This document shows, one piece after another, positions 3,010 through 21,963 of a DNA stretch of 24,799 bases. The position numbers were made by a program, and so were the translations under genes. Under the pieces are notes generated by a model that saw only the letters and a program-made list of their open reading frames with translations, did not search any database and was not told the DNA's origin. The DNA lies in the IMG/VR virus record IMGVR_UViG_3300044742_000044, positions 1-24,799 of that record; one strand, 5' to 3'. Positions within the stretch are counted from its first letter, which is position 1, and each line of letters begins with the position of its first letter. The stretch comes from a virus.

Positions 3010-3543
3010 ATGCCGAATGACGATTGGAGCTTTATGCCGCCAACGCCACCGTTTGTTATCCCTCCACCGGAGCCAAAAGAACAAGTGGTGACGTACACTT
3101 TCGCCAACGCAGAAGGCACTGCTGTGATCCGCAACGATGGCGCAGTGATTCCGAATGATCCAGACAATGCTGACTGGATCGCGTACCAGGAATGGGTCGC
3201 GCTGGGCGGCGTGACGATGCCTTACATCCAGCCACCGCCATTGAAGCCACCGCCAATTTCCAGAAGGCAGTTCTACCAGGAACTCGCTAACATGGGTTCA
3301 ATTACCCAGAATTCTGCGTTAGGCACGATGAAGACTGGCGCACTGCCCAATGAGATAGATAACTACATCAAATCCTCCAACGTGCCGAATGAACGGGAGT
3401 TCGAAGCCAATATGTTCTTCGTTGGTGCGCAGACGATCTCCATTGACGATGAATGGGTGCAAGGGTTGGCGGCCTATCTCAATACCGAGAACACAACGCC
3501 AGAGGCAATGGAAGCGATGTGGCTACGCGCGGCAAAGCTATGA
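3010..3543 (+). CDS. Tail-fibre-linked small protein, possibly assembly factor
   Basis: This 177-residue protein begins three bases after the fibre gene and overlaps the endolysin start by four bases (ATGA). It has a proline-rich N-terminus (PPTPPFVIPPPEPKE). A segment with a DPDNADWIAYQEWVALGG pattern recalls proteins encoded after phage tail-fibre genes, including tail-fibre assembly proteins. A second proline cluster (QPPPLKPPP) is followed by an alpha-helical C-terminal half beginning ISRRQFYQELA. No enzymatic motif is visible. Position and the NDPxNADW-like segment suggest a fibre assembly chaperone or minor fibre component, but that is inference. The Shine-Dalgarno sequence is weak, so translation is probably coupled to the fibre gene. 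Confidence 0.7.
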   Translation: MPNDDWSFMPPTPPFVIPPPEPKEQVVTYTFANAEGTAVIRNDGAVIPNDPDNADWIAYQEWVALGGVTMPYIQPPPLKPPPISRRQFYQELANMGSITQNSALGTMKTGALPNEIDNYIKSSNVPNEREFEANMFFVGAQTISIDDEWVQGLAAYLNTENTTPEAMEAMWLRAAKL

Positions 3544-4658
3544 GAACAATCACCGGCAAATGTTCGCACTTTGGTGGTCCCCGTGATACGGGAGTATCGC
3601 CAAGCGAGGGACTGGCGTTCATCTATGAGGTGGCGGATGCGCCGCATCTATTCCTGCCGCATCAGCCTCCAGGAACAACAGGCCTCGCAAGAAGATTGAA
3701 CCCAGAAGAGTTCTATGTTGCTTGCCGCTGGGACTATGATGAGACATCAAAGAATGAATTGCTCGGCATTATGGCATTGGTACGCTCGCCAAAGACCGGC
3801 AAACAGTTCATGGCCTATCCTGCGGACTGGGGACCGCATAAGGATACTGGCCGTGTTGCGGATTTATCGCCTGGGCTTATGGCGGCATTGGGCATTGAGA
3901 CAGACGATGAGGTTGAAGTGACCTTCCCGTATGAATTACCAGAAGAGGCTGACATGGGCATCTATAATTCTATCGTGATGTCCTCTGGACACGGCAAATA
4001 TGTCCGTGGTGCTTCTGGCTACCTCGATGAAGTTGACGAAGCTAGAAGTGTCGTGGAGAAGCTCGCCTTGGAGCTACGCATGCGCGGCTGCAATGTCGTC
4101 ACGTTCCATGATGATGTGTCCAAGACGCAAAGCGAGAACCTTAATCGCATAGTTGACTTCCACAATAGCAAGACGCGGCAACTCGACATATCCGTTCACT
4201 TCAATGCGTACCAGACAACTAGCAAACCCATGGGCACGGAGGTATTGTACGTGACACAGCAATCCCTAGCGACAGAGCTATCCAAGGTCATCTCTGAATC
4301 CGGTGGCTTTATCAATCGCGGTCCAAAGAAGCGGACTGATTTGTTCTTCCTCAACAAGACATCAGCGCCAGCGGTATTGCTCGAGGTTTGTTTCGTGGAC
4401 AGCGAGGCGGACACGGCGCAGTATGAAATGAACTTCAATCAGATATGTGCCGCCTTGGCGGATCACCTTGGCGGTGAAGTATCGAAGCCAACGCGACCAC
4501 CAATGCCAATGCCGCCAATCCCAGAGCCAATACCTCCATCGACACCACGGCCGCCAATACCAGGACCGATGCCGCATCCGCCAGTCGTGGAGGCGCGCGT
4601 CAATATCGAGATAACAGGAGACGTAATAGTAACCGTCAATGGCGTACCAGTTTCATGA
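3540..4658 (+). CDS. Endolysin: DPBB-like domain plus N-acetylmuramoyl-L-alanine amidase (Amidase_3)
   Basis: The ATG at 3540 overlaps the preceding stop (ATGA), giving 372 residues; an open frame extends further upstream inside the previous gene but is not needed. Residues ~1-130 resemble a double-psi beta-barrel module (ADWGPHKDTGRVADLSPGLMAALGI). Residues ~142-311 form a zinc amidase of the Amidase_3 type. Likely zinc ligands are H151 (SSGHG), E164 or E167, and H220 (SVHFNA), and E282 (LLEVCFVDSEAD) is the catalytic glutamate. The amidase cleaves the bond between N-acetylmuramic acid and L-alanine in peptidoglycan. A proline-rich linker (~317-348) leads to a short beta-strand tail. No signal peptide is seen, so release should depend on a holin. 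It opens the lysis cassette. Confidence 0.9.
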   Translation: MRTITGKCSHFGGPRDTGVSPSEGLAFIYEVADAPHLFLPHQPPGTTGLARRLNPEEFYVACRWDYDETSKNELLGIMALVRSPKTGKQFMAYPADWGPHKDTGRVADLSPGLMAALGIETDDEVEVTFPYELPEEADMGIYNSIVMSSGHGKYVRGASGYLDEVDEARSVVEKLALELRMRGCNVVTFHDDVSKTQSENLNRIVDFHNSKTRQLDISVHFNAYQTTSKPMGTEVLYVTQQSLATELSKVISESGGFINRGPKKRTDLFFLNKTSAPAVLLEVCFVDSEADTAQYEMNFNQICAALADHLGGEVSKPTRPPMPMPPIPEPIPPSTPRPPIPGPMPHPPVVEARVNIEITGDVIVTVNGVPVS

Positions 4659-4673
4659 AACAGGAGGCCACAA

Positions 4674-4886
4674 ATGATCAATACCTTGATCCACTTCGTC
4701 GTCTACCTAATCGTGCTTGGCGTCGTTGCTTGGTTGTTAATATACCTGGTCGACAATCTGCCAATGATGGCGCCATTCAAGCAAATCGCGCGGGTCGTGA
4801 TAACCGTGGTTTGCGTACTCATCCTGATCCTCCTTCTGCTTGATATGATCGGCATCGTCGATACTGGCCGACCCTTAGTCCGTTGA
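4674..4886 (+). CDS. Small two-helix membrane protein, candidate holin
   Basis: This 70-residue protein is preceded by a strong Shine-Dalgarno (CAGGAGG, 7 bases before ATG). It has two hydrophobic helices, about residues 5-26 (LIHFVVYLIVLGVVAWLLIYL) and 41-62 (VVITVVCVLILILLLLDMIGI), separated by a short loop. The pattern resembles small bacterial membrane proteins of the Thivi_2564 type, which also occur in phages. Its position directly after the endolysin makes a holin role likely, but the sequence alone does not prove it. Its stop TGA shares one base with the next ATG (TGATG), so the downstream gene is probably translationally coupled. Confidence 0.75.
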   Translation: MINTLIHFVVYLIVLGVVAWLLIYLVDNLPMMAPFKQIARVVITVVCVLILILLLLDMIGIVDTGRPLVR

Positions 4887-5167
4887 TGGTGAAAGATATC
4901 AAGTCATGGTTCGGGGAGAACCAAACATTGATACTCTTTCTGGGGGCGCAAGCCGTGGCTCTTGCAACAGCAGCAGCGGCGATCCTTGCTTACTCAGTCA
5001 AGCTGGAAACACGCGTGTCAATAATGGAGACGCGTGGTGCGGAATATTCCGTGGCGCGGATGGCAAAGATGGAGGAGCGCATCACGGTCCTTGAACAACA
5101 AGTCAAAAGCAACGAGGCGCAACTGCTACGCGTTGTCAATGAATTCTTAAGGGACAGAAGCAAATGA
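4886..5167 (+). CDS. Single-pass membrane protein with coiled coil, lysis cassette
   Basis: The ATG at 4886 overlaps the preceding stop (TGATG). A TTG three bases upstream is a weaker alternative. The 93-residue product has one transmembrane segment near residues 15-38 (LILFLGAQAVALATAAAAILAY). The rest is charged and heptad-like (ETRVSIMETRGAEY, KMEERITVLEQQVKSNEAQLLRVV), which predicts a coiled coil. This layout (N-terminal anchor plus periplasmic coiled coil) is like an inner-membrane spanin of the Rz type, and the location after a holin-like gene agrees. No Rz1-like lipoprotein is nested inside it, so the assignment is tentative. Confidence 0.72.
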   Translation: MVKDIKSWFGENQTLILFLGAQAVALATAAAAILAYSVKLETRVSIMETRGAEYSVARMAKMEERITVLEQQVKSNEAQLLRVVNEFLRDRSK

Positions 5168-5382
5168 ACGGACATGGTAGCAATATCGGTGCATTGTTGG
5201 ACGTGCTAAAGGCGCAACCGCTGATGCTTGGGCTATTGCTGGTGATCTTCTCGCTGATAGGATTTGTTTATCTGCAATCTGCTCAGTTCAATAATCAACG
5301 CGCTGAAAACGTCAAGTTATTTCTTGACGTGCAAAAGGAGGTGCAAAAGCTTCTGAGTCAGTGCATCATTCCGCCGAAATGA
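5164..5382 (+). CDS. Small membrane-anchored protein, lysis cassette
   Basis: This 72-residue protein starts in a four-base ATGA overlap with the previous gene. A transmembrane helix lies at about residues 20-38 (LMLGLLLVIFSLIGFVYL). A short amphipathic stretch (NVKLFLDVQKEVQKLLSQC) and IIPPK follow. There is no lipobox near the N-terminus, so it is not an obvious Rz1-type outer-membrane spanin. It could be a second holin, an antiholin or a unimolecular lysis accessory. It ends in an ATGA overlap with the 35-residue gene downstream. Confidence 0.7.
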   Translation: MNGHGSNIGALLDVLKAQPLMLGLLLVIFSLIGFVYLQSAQFNNQRAENVKLFLDVQKEVQKLLSQCIIPPK

Positions 5383-5503: not shown

Positions 5504-5532
5504 AGCCCTGGCCGAGTGCTGGGGCTTTTTTT
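5504..5532 (+). terminator. Rho-independent terminator after the lysis cassette
   Basis: A 9-bp stem (AGCCCTGGC paired with GCTGGGGCT, including two G-T pairs) with loop CGAGT is followed directly by a run of T. It lies 18 bases after the stop of the 35-residue gene and probably ends the late transcript. Confidence 0.85.
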
Positions 5533-5620: not shown

Positions 5621-6400
5621 ATGAAAAGTCTCTTTGGCGCTGCGGTGGCAGCGTCGTTGCTTGTTCTCTCTCTTCTTCCCGCACAGGCGGCCACTCGCAC
5701 TCTCGGCGGCCAAGTCTGGACACTTGGTGGCACAGATCTGACACTGGGCGGTGTACCGGCTGGGAATCAACCGCAGAATGCTCCTTGCATTATTTGCGGA
5801 GCGAACCAACCAAATCAGACTAACATCGACCAGAACTTTGGTTACACGGACTACGGCAACCAAGGCAACCAGACCTCTGAGACTTACTTCTCTTCTGGTA
5901 TTCTCAGGGACACGAACCTTGCTACCGACACTATCTCTGCGGTCAACTACAGCGGTCAGCAGATCATCAACCTGATCACTGCACTGGGCGGCCAGAATGC
6001 GTTCTCCATCGGCATTGATGTGAACCAAGCCAATGGGCAGGGCGCACAGGTGTTGGAGTCGTTCTTCTTCCTCGATCTTACTTCACACACGGTCATCGCG
6101 TCGTTCTTGCCGGCTTTGGCCGATGACATCGCACTTCCGACCCTTAACAATGGGACGGGCTTTCCTGACTATTTGCTCAATGGTCTGACGACCGCTAGCC
6201 TTGATCCAAATCATCAGTATGCGTTCTTTGCTCGCATGACGAATACGAATGATGGTCCTGACTCATTCTTCATCGTCCCGGCTGTGCAGGCAGTACCTGT
6301 TCCAGGAGCCGTCTGGCTCTTTGGTTCAGGCATCGCTGGACTCGGTATGTTGAAGTTGCGTCGTCGTAAGCAACAGCAGAAGCTTCTCGCTGCGGCTTAA
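5621..6400 (+). CDS. PEP-CTERM sorting-domain protein (exported cargo protein)
   Basis: The ATG at 5621 has an AGAGG Shine-Dalgarno 8 bases upstream and begins a typical signal peptide (MKSLFGAAVAASLLVLSLLP, then AQA as a cleavage site near residue 23). The frame stays open upstream through the terminator, but that part is not credible coding. The mature part starts with repeated TLGG/LGG units and has a CIICG motif near residue 56. Residues ~225-250 form a PEP-CTERM type tail: VPVPGAVWLFGSG, a hydrophobic helix, then KLRRRK. In bacteria such tails are processed by exosortase-type enzymes during export to the envelope or matrix. The gene sits alone between two terminators with its own palindromic upstream region, like a phage moron. 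Exact function is unknown. Confidence 0.85.
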   Translation: MKSLFGAAVAASLLVLSLLPAQAATRTLGGQVWTLGGTDLTLGGVPAGNQPQNAPCIICGANQPNQTNIDQNFGYTDYGNQGNQTSETYFSSGILRDTNLATDTISAVNYSGQQIINLITALGGQNAFSIGIDVNQANGQGAQVLESFFFLDLTSHTVIASFLPALADDIALPTLNNGTGFPDYLLNGLTTASLDPNHQYAFFARMTNTNDGPDSFFIVPAVQAVPVPGAVWLFGSGIAGLGMLKLRRRKQQQKLLAAA

Positions 6401-6407
6401 ATGAATT

Positions 6408-6435
6408 GGGGAGGCTTAATCGCCTCCCCTTTTTT
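6408..6435 (+). terminator. Rho-independent terminator after the PEP-CTERM gene
   Basis: An 8-bp perfect stem (GGGGAGGC with GCCTCCCC) with loop TTAATC is followed by six T. It lies 8 bases past the PEP-CTERM stop and separates the + strand block from the converging minus-strand operon, whose last stop codon (6434-6436) touches it. Confidence 0.9.
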
Positions 6436-6661
6436 ATTTCACCTTAGCGCCAAGATGAATCATATAGTTCATCCCGTTCTTTTTAATGTCGGTCGTTCCT
6501 CCACACTCCTCGCATATACCAGCAATGTAAAAGCTATTTGGCTTGTCCATTGTTTGTTTACGTCCGCAATGCTGGCAGTTGAATTGTTGGTAAATGGCTC
6601 CGCCTTGTGCTAGGATCAATTCACACTTTTCAATAACCTCATCCCACGGATATAGTTTCAT
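6434..6661 (-). CDS. Small zinc-ribbon protein
   Basis: The start at 6661 forms an ATGA overlap with the upstream PEP-CTERM/VPLPA gene. The longer open frame upstream would lie inside that gene, so it is rejected. The 75-residue product has two CxxC pairs (C29/C32 and C50/C53; NCQHCGRKQTM and GICEECGG), giving a four-cysteine zinc ribbon. It contains KPNSFYIAG and NYMIHLG, a pattern common in short phage proteins of unknown role. It is the last gene of the leftward operon and stops at the convergent terminator. Confidence 0.8.
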   Translation of the reverse strand: MKLYPWDEVIEKCELILAQGGAIYQQFNCQHCGRKQTMDKPNSFYIAGICEECGGTTDIKKNGMNYMIHLGAKVK

Positions 6662-7194
6662 TTGCGCCTCCCGAATAGACCAAGCATCCCAAGACCAATC
6701 GCAAACAACGGCAACGTCGCTGGTAAAGGTACAGCCGCAACCGTAGGACCACCAGTCCAAGTACCAGGGACGATGCTTTGCGCAAAGCCTTGAGACCATC
6801 CGTCAATTCCATTTCTGGTGTACGGATCAATATATCCAAACGTATTGTATCCCTCCCAAGCTATGATGTGTTGGTCAGCGTCGAATGTTATTGAGAAGTG
6901 CCCTCGTCCAATATTGCTCGTGACGATTAGTGGGCCATAGCTCAAGCTGATTCCAGGGGCCCAATTAGGCAGCACGGAGTTCGCCTCCCAATTGAAGGAA
7001 TGTGTCGTGTTTGCTAGTGAGCCTCCCAGCAGGAGAGCTTCATCAATGCTAAATTGTCCGGTCCAGCCTACTGTTGAATTTGAACCGTAAAACAATGGCT
7101 GTCCTTGGTATGTGTACGTCAACACCGCAGCATCGCCAGGTGTTGTTGAGAGTAGCGCAACGGATAGCGTCGCCATCCGCAAATAGCTATTCAT
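6658..7194 (-). CDS. VPLPA/PEP-CTERM type exported protein
   Basis: This 178-residue protein starts in an ATGA overlap with the gene upstream and ends in another with the zinc-ribbon gene. The N-terminus is a signal peptide (MNSYLRMATLSVALLSTTPG, cleavage likely after GDA near residue 22). The mature part is beta-rich and aromatic (QPLFYGSNSTVGWTGQFSID, HFSITFDADQHIIAW). The last 24 residues begin VPLPATLPLF, continue with a glycine-rich hydrophobic helix and end GRRK, the signature of a VPLPA-type PEP-CTERM sorting tail. It should be exported and processed at the envelope in a host with an exosortase. Unlike the + strand PEP-CTERM gene, it is embedded inside a translationally coupled phage operon, so it is not a stray insertion. 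Confidence 0.83.
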   Translation of the reverse strand: MNSYLRMATLSVALLSTTPGDAAVLTYTYQGQPLFYGSNSTVGWTGQFSIDEALLLGGSLANTTHSFNWEANSVLPNWAPGISLSYGPLIVTSNIGRGHFSITFDADQHIIAWEGYNTFGYIDPYTRNGIDGWSQGFAQSIVPGTWTGGPTVAAVPLPATLPLFAIGLGMLGLFGRRK

Positions 7195-7400
7195 GTTTGT
7201 GGTCCTTTTGTTGCATCGTTGATTATCTGCTTCATTGCGTCCCAGTCGTCATTCCAGTTATCCGCCATGTGGTAGATTTTTTCGAGTGCCTTGCGCAGCC
7301 GCTCGATCTCGTCGGCGGCCTCATCTTCAAGCATGATCGGGTGATCCTGTACGAACTCATCATTGGCGCGTTTGCGCAGCCGTTCAACAATGTCAGTCAT
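7191..7400 (-). CDS. Small acidic helical protein, unknown function
   Basis: The ATG at 7400 has a strong Shine-Dalgarno (GAGGAGA) and gives 69 residues; an ATG ten codons upstream lacks one. The product is charged and alpha-helical (MTDIVERLRKRANDEF, EDEAADEIERLRKALEKIYHM), a pattern frequent in short phage proteins with the EAADEIERLR segment. It ends with an ATGA overlap with the VPLPA gene. No enzyme motif is visible. Role unknown. Confidence 0.78.
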   Translation of the reverse strand: MTDIVERLRKRANDEFVQDHPIMLEDEAADEIERLRKALEKIYHMADNWNDDWDAMKQIINDATKGPQT

Positions 7401-7410
7401 AATCTCCTCA

Positions 7411-7761
7411 TCATACACGGATTTGAACAACGGGTATCTTTGCCTTGGTCGCTCGCTTAATCATATCCTTAGTGCCCTTATCGCCGGGAAACGCCATAAC
7501 AACATCAGGCTTCCCTTCGACGAGCATCTTTGCGTTTCTTATTGGTCCTGCGGCGCGGCTATATTTCGACCAGTCCGCAGGGAACGGTACGAGTTCTATG
7601 CCGCGTTCCTTCGCCCATTCAGCGGCCAAGGTATCGGCTCCTGGCGCCATCCCAGAGATTACGCAAACGATGGAGCTAAACTCATGCGCCTCATCAAGCT
7701 TGCGATACAAAAGCGTTTTGTTTGTATAGTCTCGCCCACCGCAGACCAGAACCCGTCTCAT
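7411..7761 (-). CDS. SLOG/DUF2493-family nucleotide-binding-like protein
   Basis: The start at 7761 has a GGAGGAA Shine-Dalgarno and forms an ATGA overlap with the small gene upstream, giving 116 residues. The N-terminal MRRVLVCGGRDYTNK, then VISGMAPGADTLAAEWA and VVMAFPGDKGTKDMIKRA match the DUF2493/YspA branch of the SLOG superfamily. That Rossmann-like fold binds nucleotide-derived ligands. The glycine-rich GGRDY (residues 8-12) and GxxxGAD motifs are intact. Family members are common in phages and their role is not settled; sensing or processing of nucleotides is the usual suggestion. Confidence 0.88.
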   Translation of the reverse strand: MRRVLVCGGRDYTNKTLLYRKLDEAHEFSSIVCVISGMAPGADTLAAEWAKERGIELVPFPADWSKYSRAAGPIRNAKMLVEGKPDVVMAFPGDKGTKDMIKRATKAKIPVVQIRV

Positions 7762-9910: not shown

Positions 9911-11481
9911 ATCAACCACTCCTTCCATGTATCGCCGCTGATTGTGGCGGCCATATCTATCTTGTCCCGCAATGCTTGGATGATTCGTGCATCCACGGTA
10001 TCCGGGACGATGAGATCGATGTAGACTACTGACTCTGTCTTGCCTATGCCTTGGGTTCTCTCCTCCGATTGCGAGCGGTGCTCTAGGTTGTTCGTGTTCG
10101 AGAAATAAATAACAGTGTCGGCCGCAGACCAGCGGCGCCCACGGCCACCAGCGGCAGGCGTACCGATCATGAACCGACAAGCTTCGTCTGTTTGGAATAT
10201 TTTCTCCTCCTCTTCTCTTGTTCCTTCATTGCCGCCCCAGAACCGGGCGACACAGCCCTCTCCAAACTCCTCCTCAAGGGCGGCACTTATGAACCGGACA
10301 TTGTAGTCATACGACGCCCAGATCACGGCCTTGCCTTCCACCTCACGCAAGAGGTCAATCAATGCCGCGGTCCGCTTCTCCGGTATCTCGTGTAGCTTAT
10401 CCATCTCATCCCGCGTGTGGCCGCACAAGACTTGATGAAGCCTTATCATCCGCGCCACGACACTCAGCGCGGTAACATGTTCCATTTCGGTTAGCTCTGC
10501 GGTCGCCTTCTCCTTGAGGCTTTTGTAGATACGCTTTTGCTCTGGCGTCATCTCAATATCACGCACGCTATAGAGTTTGGGCGGAAGGTCGTAACAATCT
10601 TCAAGCTTGACGCGGAACGAATGCGGCGCTATTCTGTCGCGTAGCTCATCCTCATTCTTATAGCCGACGATGGTATTGAACTTTTGGTACCAGATGCCGC
10701 GCCGGTCTAGCTCGTTCATTACCGAGTTACGATCCAAGGTGGTGACTTGTGTCATGACTCCATTGATTGTGACGCTCGTCCCAACGCGGCTTGCTAGGCG
10801 GCCTTGCAGTACTCCAGTAGGAAGCGTACACATTTTCTTTTCGATAGCGTAGCGAGCCTTGAAGGATGTGTATGTGCGATGGCCGAGGCTCCCTGGTTCG
10901 AGGAATTGGAACTGAAAGAACACATCGAGCGGCGAGCGTGGTGATATCAAGCCAGTCAATATGCGTCGATACTCCGCCAACGGACCTAGCTTCAAGGCGC
11001 GTTCAGTTCTTATGCTTTCGTTCTTTATTGTCGTGCTTTCATCGATGACGAAATAGACGCGGCGCTGTTTGAGGAAGTCTTCAGCAAGGCAAAAGGCTTC
11101 ATCAACCGCAGACAGAGCCTCGATATTGATAAGCAGTAACCTTGGACCGTTGCGGGCTTGCATAAAATATTTACGCAATAGCTGTTCCTTGGAAGCATTT
11201 TTCTTGCCACTCCGCCAGAGATAGATTTTGAGTCGCTTTTTGAGCGAAGGATCGACATGATCCTCCACCGCGTCGATCCAGGTCCGGTACACGCCGGCAG
11301 GAGCGATGACGAGAAGGTCATCAACCATCCCGTCAGTCTCAAGTTGACCAAAGTCATCGAGCGCAACCTTGGTTTTGCCGGTCCGCATCGCCATCTGCAA
11401 AGCGAACCACTTACGTCCGTGGAGATACGCCAGTGCTCGTGCTTGGTGATTCCACGGTTGCTTCAATGGTTGATATTTCAT
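9907..11481 (-). CDS. SNF2-family DEAD/DEAH-type helicase (superfamily 2)
   Basis: The ATG at 11481 overlaps the upstream stop (ATGA), giving 524 residues; an open frame before it lies inside the winged-helix gene. Motif I is MAMRTGKTK (residues 30-38), motif II DEST (147-150) and motif III LTGL (175-178). Motif VI appears as QSEERTQGIGK (about 471-481), close to the SNF2 consensus QSEDRxxRIGQ. Such ATP-dependent translocases remodel DNA or protein-DNA complexes, and phage members support replication or recombination. The glutamine and arginines of motif VI are present although GIGK replaces the usual RIGQ. It is coupled to a winged-helix protein before it and a coiled-coil protein after it. 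Confidence 0.88.
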   Translation of the reverse strand: MKYQPLKQPWNHQARALAYLHGRKWFALQMAMRTGKTKVALDDFGQLETDGMVDDLLVIAPAGVYRTWIDAVEDHVDPSLKKRLKIYLWRSGKKNASKEQLLRKYFMQARNGPRLLLINIEALSAVDEAFCLAEDFLKQRRVYFVIDESTTIKNESIRTERALKLGPLAEYRRILTGLISPRSPLDVFFQFQFLEPGSLGHRTYTSFKARYAIEKKMCTLPTGVLQGRLASRVGTSVTINGVMTQVTTLDRNSVMNELDRRGIWYQKFNTIVGYKNEDELRDRIAPHSFRVKLEDCYDLPPKLYSVRDIEMTPEQKRIYKSLKEKATAELTEMEHVTALSVVARMIRLHQVLCGHTRDEMDKLHEIPEKRTAALIDLLREVEGKAVIWASYDYNVRFISAALEEEFGEGCVARFWGGNEGTREEEEKIFQTDEACRFMIGTPAAGGRGRRWSAADTVIYFSNTNNLEHRSQSEERTQGIGKTESVVYIDLIVPDTVDARIIQALRDKIDMAATISGDTWKEWLI

Positions 11482-17545: not shown

Positions 17546-17735
17546 GTTTCCGTTCCTTCTTAATCTGGTTGATGAGGTAGCGAAATAAATCTGGATCGAA
17601 AGCTGGCCGGTCTTTTTTGAAAACGCGGCACAGCTCATCGACCATCTCACGAGACGGGTCATCCAATTCGCGGATGAGGTAGTCATAGTGCTTCTTTCCG
17701 AATAGTGGATCGGTAATTGGGAAGGGACTACTCAT
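17532..17735 (-). CDS. Small protein downstream of the VWA-like gene
   Basis: Two adjacent ATG codons (17738 and 17735) follow a GGGGGAGGGG Shine-Dalgarno; the second has the better spacing and is chosen, giving 67 residues. An earlier ATG at 17753 lies upstream of the ribosome site. The product (SSPFPITDPLFGKKHYDYLIRELDDPSREMVDELCRVFKKDRPAFDPDLFRYLINQIKKERK) is helical and charged. It overlaps the VWA-like gene's end, so it is probably part of the AAA+/VWA module as a small accessory. Function unknown. Confidence 0.7.
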   Translation of the reverse strand: MSSPFPITDPLFGKKHYDYLIRELDDPSREMVDELCRVFKKDRPAFDPDLFRYLINQIKKERKHDPI

Positions 17736-18567
17736 CATCCCCTCCCCCAACATACTCCTTCAAGGTCCGCTTCACCCAACCCACCGGGTCAGTCGTCATT
17801 TCGTCCGTCAGGAAGATCGGCGGGACGTAAAGTATCTCTTGGCCTTCGAAAACATTCGCCAGCCGCTCCTTCGCGGTAGCCTGATGCCTCCGAAAGTCTC
17901 CCAGCGGCCAGCCGCCGCCAGTCTCAAACTTTTCAGTAGCCATCTCGTATCCAAATCCGCGCGCAATCGACGTGGAGGCGATACGGAACGCCGCACGGGC
18001 CAGATCCAGCGGCGCGGTATCTATCCGCCACGCCACCGTTCCCGACACGCCATTATAGCCGCCACCTAGTCCGGTGCCGACCCAGAGCTCAACCGCGCGA
18101 TGGTCGCAGAGGAGGCGAACCAGCGCCAGTAGTACGGTCCCGCGATCCTGGATCCTTTTCGCGTCGATGCCGGCGCTAGAGGTCAGGTCCATATAGATAA
18201 CCAGCGGCGCGTTATTCTTCGTCACTCGCTTCCGCCGACGCATACACATCGGCTGGCCCGCCAGATAGGCCGGGATATTCGGAAACGCTCCAACGACGTC
18301 ATCAACCGTCTGGTATCCCTTCGACATTGGAACTTGGTCCTCGATTTTTTCCAACATCGCCTCGGACGCAGCGACCAGCGTCTCGTCACCGAGCATAATC
18401 TTATTCAGAAGCTCATCGAAGCTATTCCCACCGGACCAAGAGCGGTTCCGGGCGAGATAGCCCGTCAACCGCTTCTCAATCGACTTCACCGCCGGGATTA
18501 CCTCATCACTTTCCAGGAGCAGGTAACGGTCCGGGCGCTTATCGTAAGTCAGGTCAATCTGTCTCAT
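17728..18567 (-). CDS. VWA-like (MIDAS-type) partner of the AAA+ ATPase
   Basis: The ATG at 18567 lies two bases after the AAA+ gene's stop; a slightly longer frame is possible but overlaps it. The 279-residue protein has a VWA-like core from about residue 115: PLVIYMDLTSSAGID (D127, S130 and S131 of a MIDAS-like DxTSS), then RGTVLLALVRLLCDHRAVELWVG. The DxTSS replaces the usual DxSxS. Similar proteins are found beside MoxR/CobS-type ATPases in phages, and the arrangement recalls CobS-CobT. The N-terminal region is basic and contains an MCMRRRKRVTK stretch. A role in remodelling a protein complex together with the ATPase is likely. Confidence 0.78.
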   Translation of the reverse strand: MRQIDLTYDKRPDRYLLLESDEVIPAVKSIEKRLTGYLARNRSWSGGNSFDELLNKIMLGDETLVAASEAMLEKIEDQVPMSKGYQTVDDVVGAFPNIPAYLAGQPMCMRRRKRVTKNNAPLVIYMDLTSSAGIDAKRIQDRGTVLLALVRLLCDHRAVELWVGTGLGGGYNGVSGTVAWRIDTAPLDLARAAFRIASTSIARGFGYEMATEKFETGGGWPLGDFRRHQATAKERLANVFEGQEILYVPPIFLTDEMTTDPVGWVKRTLKEYVGGGDDE

Positions 18568-18568
18568 G

Positions 18569-19753
18569 TTACACCAACTCAATCTGTTTGCGTTGTTCGG
18601 GCTTCAGGTTCGCGAGGTAGGTCAACTCCGCCGCTTCATCGGAGGAGAAGCCACCCTCATCGATCAAGGTAGAACCGGCGAGCGAGGTACGCACGTCGAT
18701 CATCACCTTCAATCCAACGGCTCGGGCATTCGCCCTAGCGCGACGGACACGGGCCAGCCATTCTTTATTATTTACGATAGCGAACTCCAGGTCCAGGTCG
18801 ATGTCCCAGGAGATCTTAACCGGGAAGCGCGACAGGAACGCCGCGTCCAGTTTCGTCGCACCGGAATAGTTCGCGTCCATTCCCAAGCCCCAAGTGTTAG
18901 CGGTACAGATAATGATACAATCCTTGTGCCGCTTCACTTGCTTATCCGGGAAGGTCGCGACGCCATTCGCCAAGTGAGGGTTAACGGCGAGCAGCGCGTT
19001 CGGATCAGAGCGATCTACTTCATCGAACGTATACACGCCGCCAAATTCGTAGGCGTCGCGGAAAGGCGTCCGGTGATAGGTACCAGCGCCATCGATGAAG
19101 CCGAGCATCTCGTGTGGGAGAGAAATGGCCCCGTTAAAGTACCACTTCAATCCAAGCGCCTCAGCGACCTGCTTCGCTCCGGTCGTTTTACCGGAGGAAG
19201 CTTCACCGGAGAGGAAGATGCCGAGACGCTGGCCGTCCACGCCGCGCAGAGAGGCAATCTTCAGAAGCCTCTCAAAATTCTTATGGCGCGCACCGACAAC
19301 CTTAATCGCCTTTCCAGTCTCAGCATTCTTTACGACGATCTCAACTTTCCGAGGCAGCCGCTCATCGAGCGTCTTTACCACGGAGGCAACAACGCTATCG
19401 GAAAACTTTCCGTCGATCTTTTTCAAGACCGCGCCAACGATCAGCTCAGGATCAATCTTCTCCTTGCCGACCTTCTCCATAACCTTATCGACGATCTCCT
19501 CCACGTTTACGTTCGTGCCGGTATTAACGTGGATGTTAGCCTTAATGTGCTTCCGGTTCGCCCTAGCGAGGAGCGTCCCAACGAACAGTTCCTGCTTTTC
19601 GGAAAATGTTCGATCATTCTTTCCCATATAGATAAAGTCGCGAGCGGCCTTCACGCTATTGGGCTTAACTAATCCAGCCTTCTCCTTCTCGATCAAAATC
19701 GGGAGAACGGACTCAAGAGCGGCGAGGTTAGCCTTCAAAGAAGAAGAGATCAT
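18569..19753 (-). CDS. MoxR/CobS-like AAA+ ATPase
   Basis: The 394-residue protein starts with AAGGAA upstream. The N-terminal ~150 residues are helical and charged, possibly a partner-binding region. Walker A is GEASSGKTT (183-191) and Walker B YTFDEVD (241-247). Sensor 1 is ICTANT (N286) and the arginine finger lies in FLSRF (R309). The DAAFLSRF and GATKLD pattern matches the MoxR/CobS branch, whose members work with a VWA partner to remodel metalloenzymes or membrane complexes. The VWA-like gene follows immediately. The role in the phage cycle is unknown; DNA replication, host takeover or virion maturation are all possible. Confidence 0.88.
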   Translation of the reverse strand: MISSSLKANLAALESVLPILIEKEKAGLVKPNSVKAARDFIYMGKNDRTFSEKQELFVGTLLARANRKHIKANIHVNTGTNVNVEEIVDKVMEKVGKEKIDPELIVGAVLKKIDGKFSDSVVASVVKTLDERLPRKVEIVVKNAETGKAIKVVGARHKNFERLLKIASLRGVDGQRLGIFLSGEASSGKTTGAKQVAEALGLKWYFNGAISLPHEMLGFIDGAGTYHRTPFRDAYEFGGVYTFDEVDRSDPNALLAVNPHLANGVATFPDKQVKRHKDCIIICTANTWGLGMDANYSGATKLDAAFLSRFPVKISWDIDLDLEFAIVNNKEWLARVRRARANARAVGLKVMIDVRTSLAGSTLIDEGGFSSDEAAELTYLANLKPEQRKQIELV

Positions 19754-20665: not shown

Positions 20666-21058
20666 TTACTTCGCCGTGCGTAGGACGGAGGAAATGACCT
20701 CCCAATTCCACATTTTCGGACCACCATCGGCGGCATAAACCCAAGGAGTTTTCTTCATCATATTTGGATCTGCGTCGCTGCCTTTGTAAATATAAATCTC
20801 ATCGGCATCCCGGTTCTGGCGGCGGATAATTATGAAGCTCCTTCCTCCGTGGCGAGCGTAGGCGGAGTGCCAGCCGATTTGCTCCGGACGAAACCGGACG
20901 ACCATCCCGGAGGTGGCTTTGTATTCGTTCCAGCCGCTTATCCCGGAGCTACACCAGTAGTGATCCGGGACACCGCCACCGCTCATCGGCGTCTCGATCA
21001 CGACCCAAAAATAGTCGCGCAGTTGCTTCCGGAACATTGGGCGTAATCCGCCATCCAT
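20666..21058 (-). CDS. PD-(D/E)XK nuclease, VRR-NUC/Holliday-resolvase-like
   Basis: The start shares one base with the upstream stop (TAATG) and has GGAGGAAG upstream. The 130-residue protein shows the core of the PD-(D/E)XK fold: GGGVPDHYW (P31, D32), GWNEYKAT (E45, K47), and the following helix carries Q60 (PEQIGWH), a residue often seen in VRR-NUC and archaeal-resolvase type enzymes. A preceding glutamate (E22, WVVIETP) may complete the metal site. It should be a metal-dependent DNA nuclease, perhaps resolving branched replication intermediates. It lies in a coupled cassette with the glycosyltransferase and polymerase genes. Substrate not predictable from sequence. Confidence 0.8.
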   Translation of the reverse strand: MDGGLRPMFRKQLRDYFWVVIETPMSGGGVPDHYWCSSGISGWNEYKATSGMVVRFRPEQIGWHSAYARHGGRSFIIIRRQNRDADEIYIYKGSDADPNMMKKTPWVYAADGGPKMWNWEVISSVLRTAK

Positions 21059-21963
21059 TAAACTTCCTCCGCCAGCCGCTCCTGGTCTTCACGGTCCATC
21101 CACATCGCGGATTTAATCTCGTGGCCGCGCCTCTTGGCGGCGAGCCGATAAGTCTGGTACAGTGGCCTTGAGATACGCTTGCCGTGGCGGTATTCGCCGA
21201 AATGCTTCGTGATCTGCGCGTGGACGCCGACAGTGGTAAGATAATCTTGGCTGTAATTTTGATTATCTGTGAGGTGTTTGCCGGACCGTCCGCTTGGAAC
21301 GAATATCTTTTTGCTTGGATCCTTTCGGAGCGGAGTATTGAATGTCTTGGCGACATAAAAGCCGTTGATGAGAGAGGTAACGAAAGTCGCCGGATCAGAT
21401 CCACCGCCAATTACGTTAAGACGCGGATCAATAAGTGGTCCATAGGCGCGGTCCTTGCCGCGCATGACGAGGCCACAGGCCGTTTCATAGAAGCCATTGA
21501 AAAATGGCTGGATGTAGCGTCCGGAATTTGCTCCGCCAAGGAAGCCCGTCATCTGGACCAATCCACATTCGGGATATTTCTTCAAATAATAGACAGCATC
21601 AGAATAACGCCGGCCAGTGGATACTCCAAGTTGTGTCGTGCTGCCGTTCGTGAAGCGGAAGTCATCATCAACCCATATCAGATAGTCAGCCTCGGCACGT
21701 TCCGCGAGCCAAAAGGAATGGAGCCGCGCCTCGACAAAATTGAACAGTGGCCCTTCTGGCGGCTTGCGATACGCAAAGTTGAATTCTACTCCTTTTGGAA
21801 GTGAGCGATCTATTTCAGCAAGATCATTAACCGTGTATGGATCTTGGTACGAGAGACATAATTGATATTTGTGCGATGAAACCATCGCGTGCCTGAACGT
21901 CGCAGCGACGCATGTCTTCATTTTCTCTGGACGATTAGAGATAACAACAAGGGCGATTTTCAT
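21058..21963 (-). CDS. GT-A type glycosyltransferase
   Basis: This 301-residue protein starts one base into the upstream stop (TAATG) with GGAGGATT upstream. The N-terminus MKIALVVISNRPEKMKTCVAATFRHA is a Rossmann-like start. YLIWVDDDFRF (D99-D101) is the DxD-type metal-binding motif of GT-A enzymes. VQMTGFLGGANSGRYIQPFFNGF and CGLVMRGKDRAYGPLIDPRLNV follow, typical of the acceptor half. It should transfer a sugar from a nucleotide donor. In phages such enzymes modify DNA bases, virion proteins or host surface; an assignment to the TET-associated glycosyltransferase class is possible but not verified. Its place between polymerase and nuclease favours DNA modification. Confidence 0.78.
   Translation of the reverse strand: MKIALVVISNRPEKMKTCVAATFRHAMVSSHKYQLCLSYQDPYTVNDLAEIDRSLPKGVEFNFAYRKPPEGPLFNFVEARLHSFWLAERAEADYLIWVDDDFRFTNGSTTQLGVSTGRRYSDAVYYLKKYPECGLVQMTGFLGGANSGRYIQPFFNGFYETACGLVMRGKDRAYGPLIDPRLNVIGGGSDPATFVTSLINGFYVAKTFNTPLRKDPSKKIFVPSGRSGKHLTDNQNYSQDYLTTVGVHAQITKHFGEYRHGKRISRPLYQTYRLAAKRRGHEIKSAMWMDREDQERLAEEV

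Follow-up and report, generated by a model that had tools for sequence, protein, structure and literature searches.

Phage proteins built from a signal peptide, an exchangeable cargo, and a PEP-CTERM-type sorting tail

Why does a phage carry two genes whose products end like substrates of a bacterial envelope-sorting system? We analyzed the complete 24,799-base IMG/VR virus record IMGVR_UViG_3300044742_000044 (here, the window), in which a first-pass annotation had noted two such genes on opposite strands, P0001 and P0002. The PEP-CTERM/EpsH (exosortase) sorting system was described by Haft et al. in 2006 (PMC1569441) and is represented by the models TIGR02595 and PF07589; phages go unmentioned in that original study. 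We found P0001 and P0002 each to be built as a signal peptide, a cargo, and a sorting tail, and below we follow how these parts are conserved and exchanged, how common such genes are in viral contigs, and what they may do.

Two tailed genes in one phage

The window carries two tail-fiber genes, an Amidase_3 endolysin, a phage-type DNA polymerase III alpha, a helicase, and an AAA protein; the region is phage DNA, and the concern that it might be a fragment of host chromosome can be set aside. P0001 and P0002 meet where rightward late genes converge on leftward genes (Table 1). P0001 forms a separate unit after the lysis region, as it is flanked by two terminator-like hairpins, both kept in the related phage L004. 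A scan for the sigma-70 consensus, which covers that promoter type only, showed no consensus promoter directly upstream of the gene. In other phages (e.g., L005, L051, and L053), the P0001 homolog instead follows replication genes. P0002 lies within a leftward operon, overlapping its neighbors by 4 nt at each end, and neither of these two open reading frames (ORFs) had a PHROG match.

Table 1. Features at and around the two tailed genes (positions in the window)
Feature	Position	Strand	Description
Endolysin (Amidase_3)	3453-4658	+	First gene of the lysis region preceding P0001; start assigned mechanically, and the actual one may be later
Three small membrane proteins	4674-4886, 4883-5167, 5164-5382	+	Probable lysis cassette; 4883-5167 is a weak holin match
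Intrinsic-terminator-like hairpin and T run	5504-5526	+	Between lysis genes and P0001; kept in L004
P0001	5621-6400	+	259 aa; GAGG ribosome-binding site upstream; start conserved in homologs; signal peptide (residues ~1-24), phage-specific beta-sandwich core (~25-217), sorting tail (~225-259)
P0001 exchangeable core cassette	5692-6281	+	DNA homology with L005 is 5675-6281 only
P0001 sorting tail	6293-6397	+	VPVPGAVWLFGSGIAGLGMLKLRRRKQQQKLLAAA; class unlike that of closest core relative, L005
Terminator-like hairpin 3' of P0001	6408-6429	strong on both	T run on +; kept in L004
Small zinc-ribbon-like ORF (Cys pairs)	6434-6661	-	4-nt overlap with P0002 end; same leftward operon; from sequence reading
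P0002	6658-7194	-	178 aa; signal peptide, cargo, tail VPLPATLPLFAIGLGMLGLFGRRK
79-aa ORF	7191-7430	-	4-nt overlap with P0002 start; same leftward operon

P0001 runs from MKSLFGAAVAASLLVLSLLPAQA to AVPVPGAVWLFGSGIAGLGMLKLRRRKQQQKLLAAA, and P0002 runs from MNSYLRMATLSVALLSTTPGDA to AVPLPATLPLFAIGLGMLGLFGRRK. Both have a tail consisting of VPxP, a hydrophobic stretch, and a basic end, and both have an N-terminal signal peptide as judged by residue reading and a crude detector rule; the coordinates and frames given by the first-pass annotation were right. With the Pfam model PF07589 (cutoff, 20.7 bits), P0002 passes at 25.9 bits and P0001 falls short at 16.0. P0001 passes NCBIfam TIGR02595 (17.9; cutoff, 16). 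Each protein therefore combines the motif, hydrophobic helix, and basic cluster with a curated PEP-CTERM model over its cutoff, P0002 via PF07589 and P0001 via TIGR02595, and the model search that had been proposed as a check came out in favor of the assignment. The accompanying VPLPA label was loose: P0001 (18.5) and P0002 (14.6) both miss the cutoff of 25.35 of VPLPA-CTERM (TIGR03370). Both also miss the flocculation protein PepA model (NF033554; cutoff, 80) with scores of 20.0 and 25.5, largely from the tail.

Without a signal-peptide requirement, our generic tail detector fired on 23 of 14,460 shuffled ORFs. Tail conservation is stronger evidence than this chance rate: the VP, hydrophobic stretch, and basic residues are kept in 21 of 21 aligned P0001 homologs, nearly all of which were found by core and not by tail patterns.

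Two other loci in the window are recorded here. A 301-aa protein (positions 21058 to 21963, minus strand), without a Pfam or PHROG match, has a glycosyltransferase-type look by eye and is a possible further surface- or DNA-modifying accessory gene. On the same strand, a phrog_249 AAA ATPase adjoins a DUF7192/phrog_1909 protein (17728 to 18582 and 18569 to 19753).

Independent exchange of core, signal peptide, and tail

A core-based search gave P0001 relatives in 23 viral contigs, and with later loci the family comprises 59 unique sequences, 58 of which contain VPxP. Among 84,980 prokaryote species genomes, exact short peptide patterns of the core, which remote kin could escape, gave 78 matches and no true relatives. 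Named phages and plasmids yielded no relatives of P0001, P0002, the cargos, or the tails worth keeping. All P0001 cores that we found come from viral contigs; the earlier view of such proteins as normally encoded by hosts is right for the tails but not for this core. The core is strongly conserved in an alignment across 21 phages, with invariant or near-invariant motifs (PCxICG..QP.Q, FGY.D.GN, FSSG, ESF..LD, NGTG, and DGPDSF), and its dN/dS between the window and L004 is approximately 0.16; P0001 is therefore under purifying selection.

AlphaFold2 predicts P0001 to be a beta-sandwich with moderate confidence (mean pLDDT, 70). The model had no Foldseek match at an E value of ≤0.001, and a PDB sequence search gave nothing convincing. 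An Akkermansia enzyme domain was the best structural candidate (VIA Z, 7.0; root mean square deviation, 3.5; 117 aligned residues) and was rejected as lying within the usual noise. The P0002 model (pLDDT, 43) was unusable.

The same core is joined to several tail types, namely, VPVPGAVWLFGSG in the window and L004, VPLPAVG.G in L005, L007, and L046, and VPGPIVGAGLPG in most members. The tails of L044 and L049 resemble PEPxxWA-CTERM (6.8e-8 and 5e-6, both below the cutoff), the L044 homolog scores 20.7 with TIGR02595 (over the cutoff), and L054 carries a VPLPA-CTERM tail (27.6; cutoff, 25.35). Tail type switches at least seven times on the core tree, compared with a mean of 8.6 for shuffled labels. 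In a pairwise comparison, core and tail identities are uncorrelated (Spearman coefficient of -0.02; 210 pairs). The window and L005, which has the closest core, share 85% identity in the core and 42% in the tail, whereas for the window and L004 the values are 79% and 97%. In one assembly, a near-copy of the L005 gene (L006, positions 10001 to 10801) has a frameshifted tail and has therefore lost the sorting signal there, through either sequencing error or real loss.

The DNA follows the same boundaries. Over 20.8 kb of L005, homology to the window is confined to the stretch encoding the mature core (Table 1), with the signal peptide and the tail outside it. Altogether, the P0001 gene contains shared DNA in 181 of 210 phage pairs; 145 of the 181 share none elsewhere within the compared stretches (many of the records are fragments), and 132 of the matches are confined to the core within 24 nt. 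The reverse arrangement is seen between the window and L004, where the flanks and tail are 95 to 98% identical in DNA and the core is 78% identical; dS is 1.02 for the core and 0.31 for the tail. A degree of mosaicism at gene borders is usual in phages, which counts against a modular reading.

Cargo is also replaced inside a fixed frame. The contig of L005 (G003; 94,958 bases) contains two sister phages of approximately 46 kb each. At the matching locus, the second shares the signal peptide and tail of the first, but its cargo is unrelated. DNA homology between the sisters ends just past the signal peptide, at 32,596, and restarts at the tail, at 33,198. In L047, a signal peptide and tail like those of L058 are joined to another core. 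P0002 behaves similarly: the window and phage L010 share only 29 nt of DNA, where the P0002 gene starts, and in the L010 protein a different middle part lies between a P0002-like signal-peptide start and tail. Overall, 65 protein pairs from different cargo clusters have tails that are at least 80% identical.

In this 94,958-base record (IMGVR_UViG_3300021082_000020; L063 to L067), the two sister phages lie head to tail, with approximately 71 to 92% DNA identity between the halves; the arrangement is either a true tandem or the result of co-occurring relatives having been joined during assembly.

Tailed genes across viral contigs

We scanned IMG/VR for two tail types, of which one was present in 27 stretches and the other in at least 120; 146 such loci contain 162 ORFs with both a signal peptide and a tail according to the crude detector. 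Together with earlier finds, these ORFs fall into at least 22 cargo clusters, of which that of P0001 is the largest. Across 80 loci, many of the largest neighboring ORFs match terminases, portals, major head proteins, or helicases, and some match integrases; the loci are therefore phages or prophages. Two or more tailed genes occur in 21 viral loci, mostly in tandem. Of the first-pass interpretation, that a phage shipping two envelope-sorted proteins is unusual and may alter its host's surface or matrix, the tail type and the phage origin are supported; the rarity of pairs is not, given these 21 loci and the commonness of PEP-CTERM genes in viral contigs.

In 18 of 19 multigene loci, the tails of a phage are all of one type, a concordance equaled in 67 of 20,000 random draws; the sole discordant locus looks like a mislabel by the tail pattern. 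This concordance is supporting but not conclusive, since the loci were gathered partly by tail pattern. Taken with the exchanges described above, this shows a core that is swapped between phages independently of the signal peptide and tail, and concordant tail types within each phage.

Two cargos resemble cellular PEP-CTERM families along their lengths at below-cutoff levels, one in L054 (positions 6784 to 7413; FxDxF family, 4.7e-10) and one in L027 (15423 to 16082; THxN family, 7.9e-19). A separate cluster of 13 phage proteins (L136, positions 1201 to 1896, with L075, L080, L081, L087, and L095) has a Cys and a QLAIW motif and looks thioester-domain-like; it matches Pfam TED at an E value of 0.041, below the cutoff, and is a possible covalent adhesin carried by phages.

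The tail pattern VPGP.(V/A)GAG.PG is very common in IMG/VR viral contigs. Most of the GAGLPG-type tails tested matched none of the curated sorting-tail models, and in genomes this tail type gave one chance-like match among 398 of one phylum and none among 289 of one class. The pattern may mark an unmodeled exosortase class of one host group.

Putative role and relation to known systems

We consider P0001 and P0002 to be, probably, accessory phage genes ("morons") that hijack the host's exosortase/PEP-CTERM-type C-terminal sorting to display cargo. P0001 has the marks of a moron, with hairpins on both sides of a single gene, a core common to phages without other homology in the compared DNA, and replacement by another cargo in a sister phage. 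After export, signal peptidase would take off the N terminus, the tail would stop the protein in the inner membrane, a host exosortase would cleave at VPxP, and the cargo would end up on the outer surface or in the matrix. Each phage would carry the tail type that its current host's enzyme accepts, and a cargo could therefore move between phages of different hosts by acquiring the signal peptide and tail of the recipient. Cutting by a host exosortase and matching of tail to enzyme are suggested by the known system (PMC1569441) together with the observed modular pattern. More broadly, many soil phages may well carry such a portable display, in which the frame consists of a host-matched signal peptide and an exosortase-sorting tail, the 22 or more cargo clusters are exchanged inside it by recombination, and phages of different hosts trade surface weapons or shields shown via the host exosortase.

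Any exosortase acting on these tails would have to be the host's, because the phages encode tails without one. None of 26 related virus records contained an exosortase, and we thus infer the processing enzyme. A six-frame search for EpsH in three metagenome-assembled genomes (MAGs) bearing one tail type was also negative; such negatives are weak, as nothing was found even in a MAG with 16 PEP-CTERM genes. The P0001 tail pattern occurs in three stretches of species genomes, in MAGs of Desulfobulbaceae, Methylococcaceae, and one other bacterium, and is not host identifying. Relatives of the polymerase and terminase come from phages of many hosts, at <50% identity.

What the displayed cargo does is a more tentative matter. 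We place infection-blocking surface display first, ahead of matrix effects and, third, an uncut membrane anchor; the cargo could alter what binds or enters the infected cell, i.e., cause superinfection exclusion, a role that we favor over the others while holding it as a possibility. That the proteins enter the exopolysaccharide matrix and hold infected cells in flocs or biofilm seems doubtful. PEP-CTERM genes are linked to exopolysaccharide loci (PMC1569441), the phage cargos include the relatives of the FxDxF and THxN families, and the profile of the floc protein PepA is matched in part by the two window proteins, but that match is far under the cutoff and mostly tail, and the search turned up no cellular relative of the P0001 core, which leaves no evident sign of a borrowed matrix protein in the case of P0001.

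It is also unlikely that the tail is a mere C-terminal anchor keeping P0001 and P0002 uncut in the inner membrane and facing the periplasm, e.g., for lysis timing, a spanin-like function, or a superinfection block at that membrane. Any VPxP tail would serve as a stop-transfer anchor too, P0001 directly follows the lysis region, and the related virus records lack a detected exosortase. However, a plain anchor does not need the VPxP kept in all but one of the unique family members, the tails fit recognized sorting-tail classes and are concordant within a phage, and a terminator stands between the lysis genes and P0001, whose homologs lie beside replication genes in other phages. A decoy function, in which the tail itself is the effector and stops surface export by overloading or blocking the host exosortase, is improbable: many unrelated cargos do share the same tail types, making the tail the common element, but a decoy needs no conserved cargo, and the P0001 core is conserved under purifying selection. 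Least probable are host genes caught in metagenomic phage contigs as contamination or prophage flanks, with no phage role; some contigs do carry integrases, and four (L189, L200, L208, and L217) have GGLLGWWRRRQ-type tails, a type associated with rhizobial chromosomes, but the genes sit among the window's phage genes, virion and replication genes neighbor the tailed loci, and the P0001 core was found in dozens of viral contigs and in none of the species genomes searched with its peptide patterns.

The preferred reading, sorting by a host exosortase, would give phages a route to modify the exterior of environmental Gram-negative hosts, and the tail could then help to predict the hosts of uncultured phages. 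We found no report of PEP-CTERM-tailed phage proteins, or of such a route, in the open-access literature searched. Exosortase substrates are numerous, mostly of unassigned function, and few are tractable; the phage versions are small and under strong selection, and the joining of a single core to several tail classes is a natural experiment on tail specificity.

Envelope morons and superinfection-exclusion proteins are known to use lipoprotein signals, plain membrane helices, or outer membrane barrels. Like P0001, they are single-gene units between terminators that are targeted to the envelope and traded between phages. With the PEP-CTERM/EpsH system, P0001 and P0002 share the N-terminal signal peptide, the VPxP/PEP motif near the C terminus, the hydrophobic helix, the basic end, and matches to curated models; unlike in that system, they are phage encoded and have no exosortase gene alongside. 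The cellular FxDxF and THxN families resemble the cargos of L054 and L027 and are not the families of P0001 or P0002. The tails of individual members of the P0001 core family resemble either VPLPA-CTERM (TIGR03370) or PEPxxWA-CTERM (NF035944), but in contrast to those classes, one phage core is joined to several of them. The new point is this modularity of phage export-and-sorting proteins.
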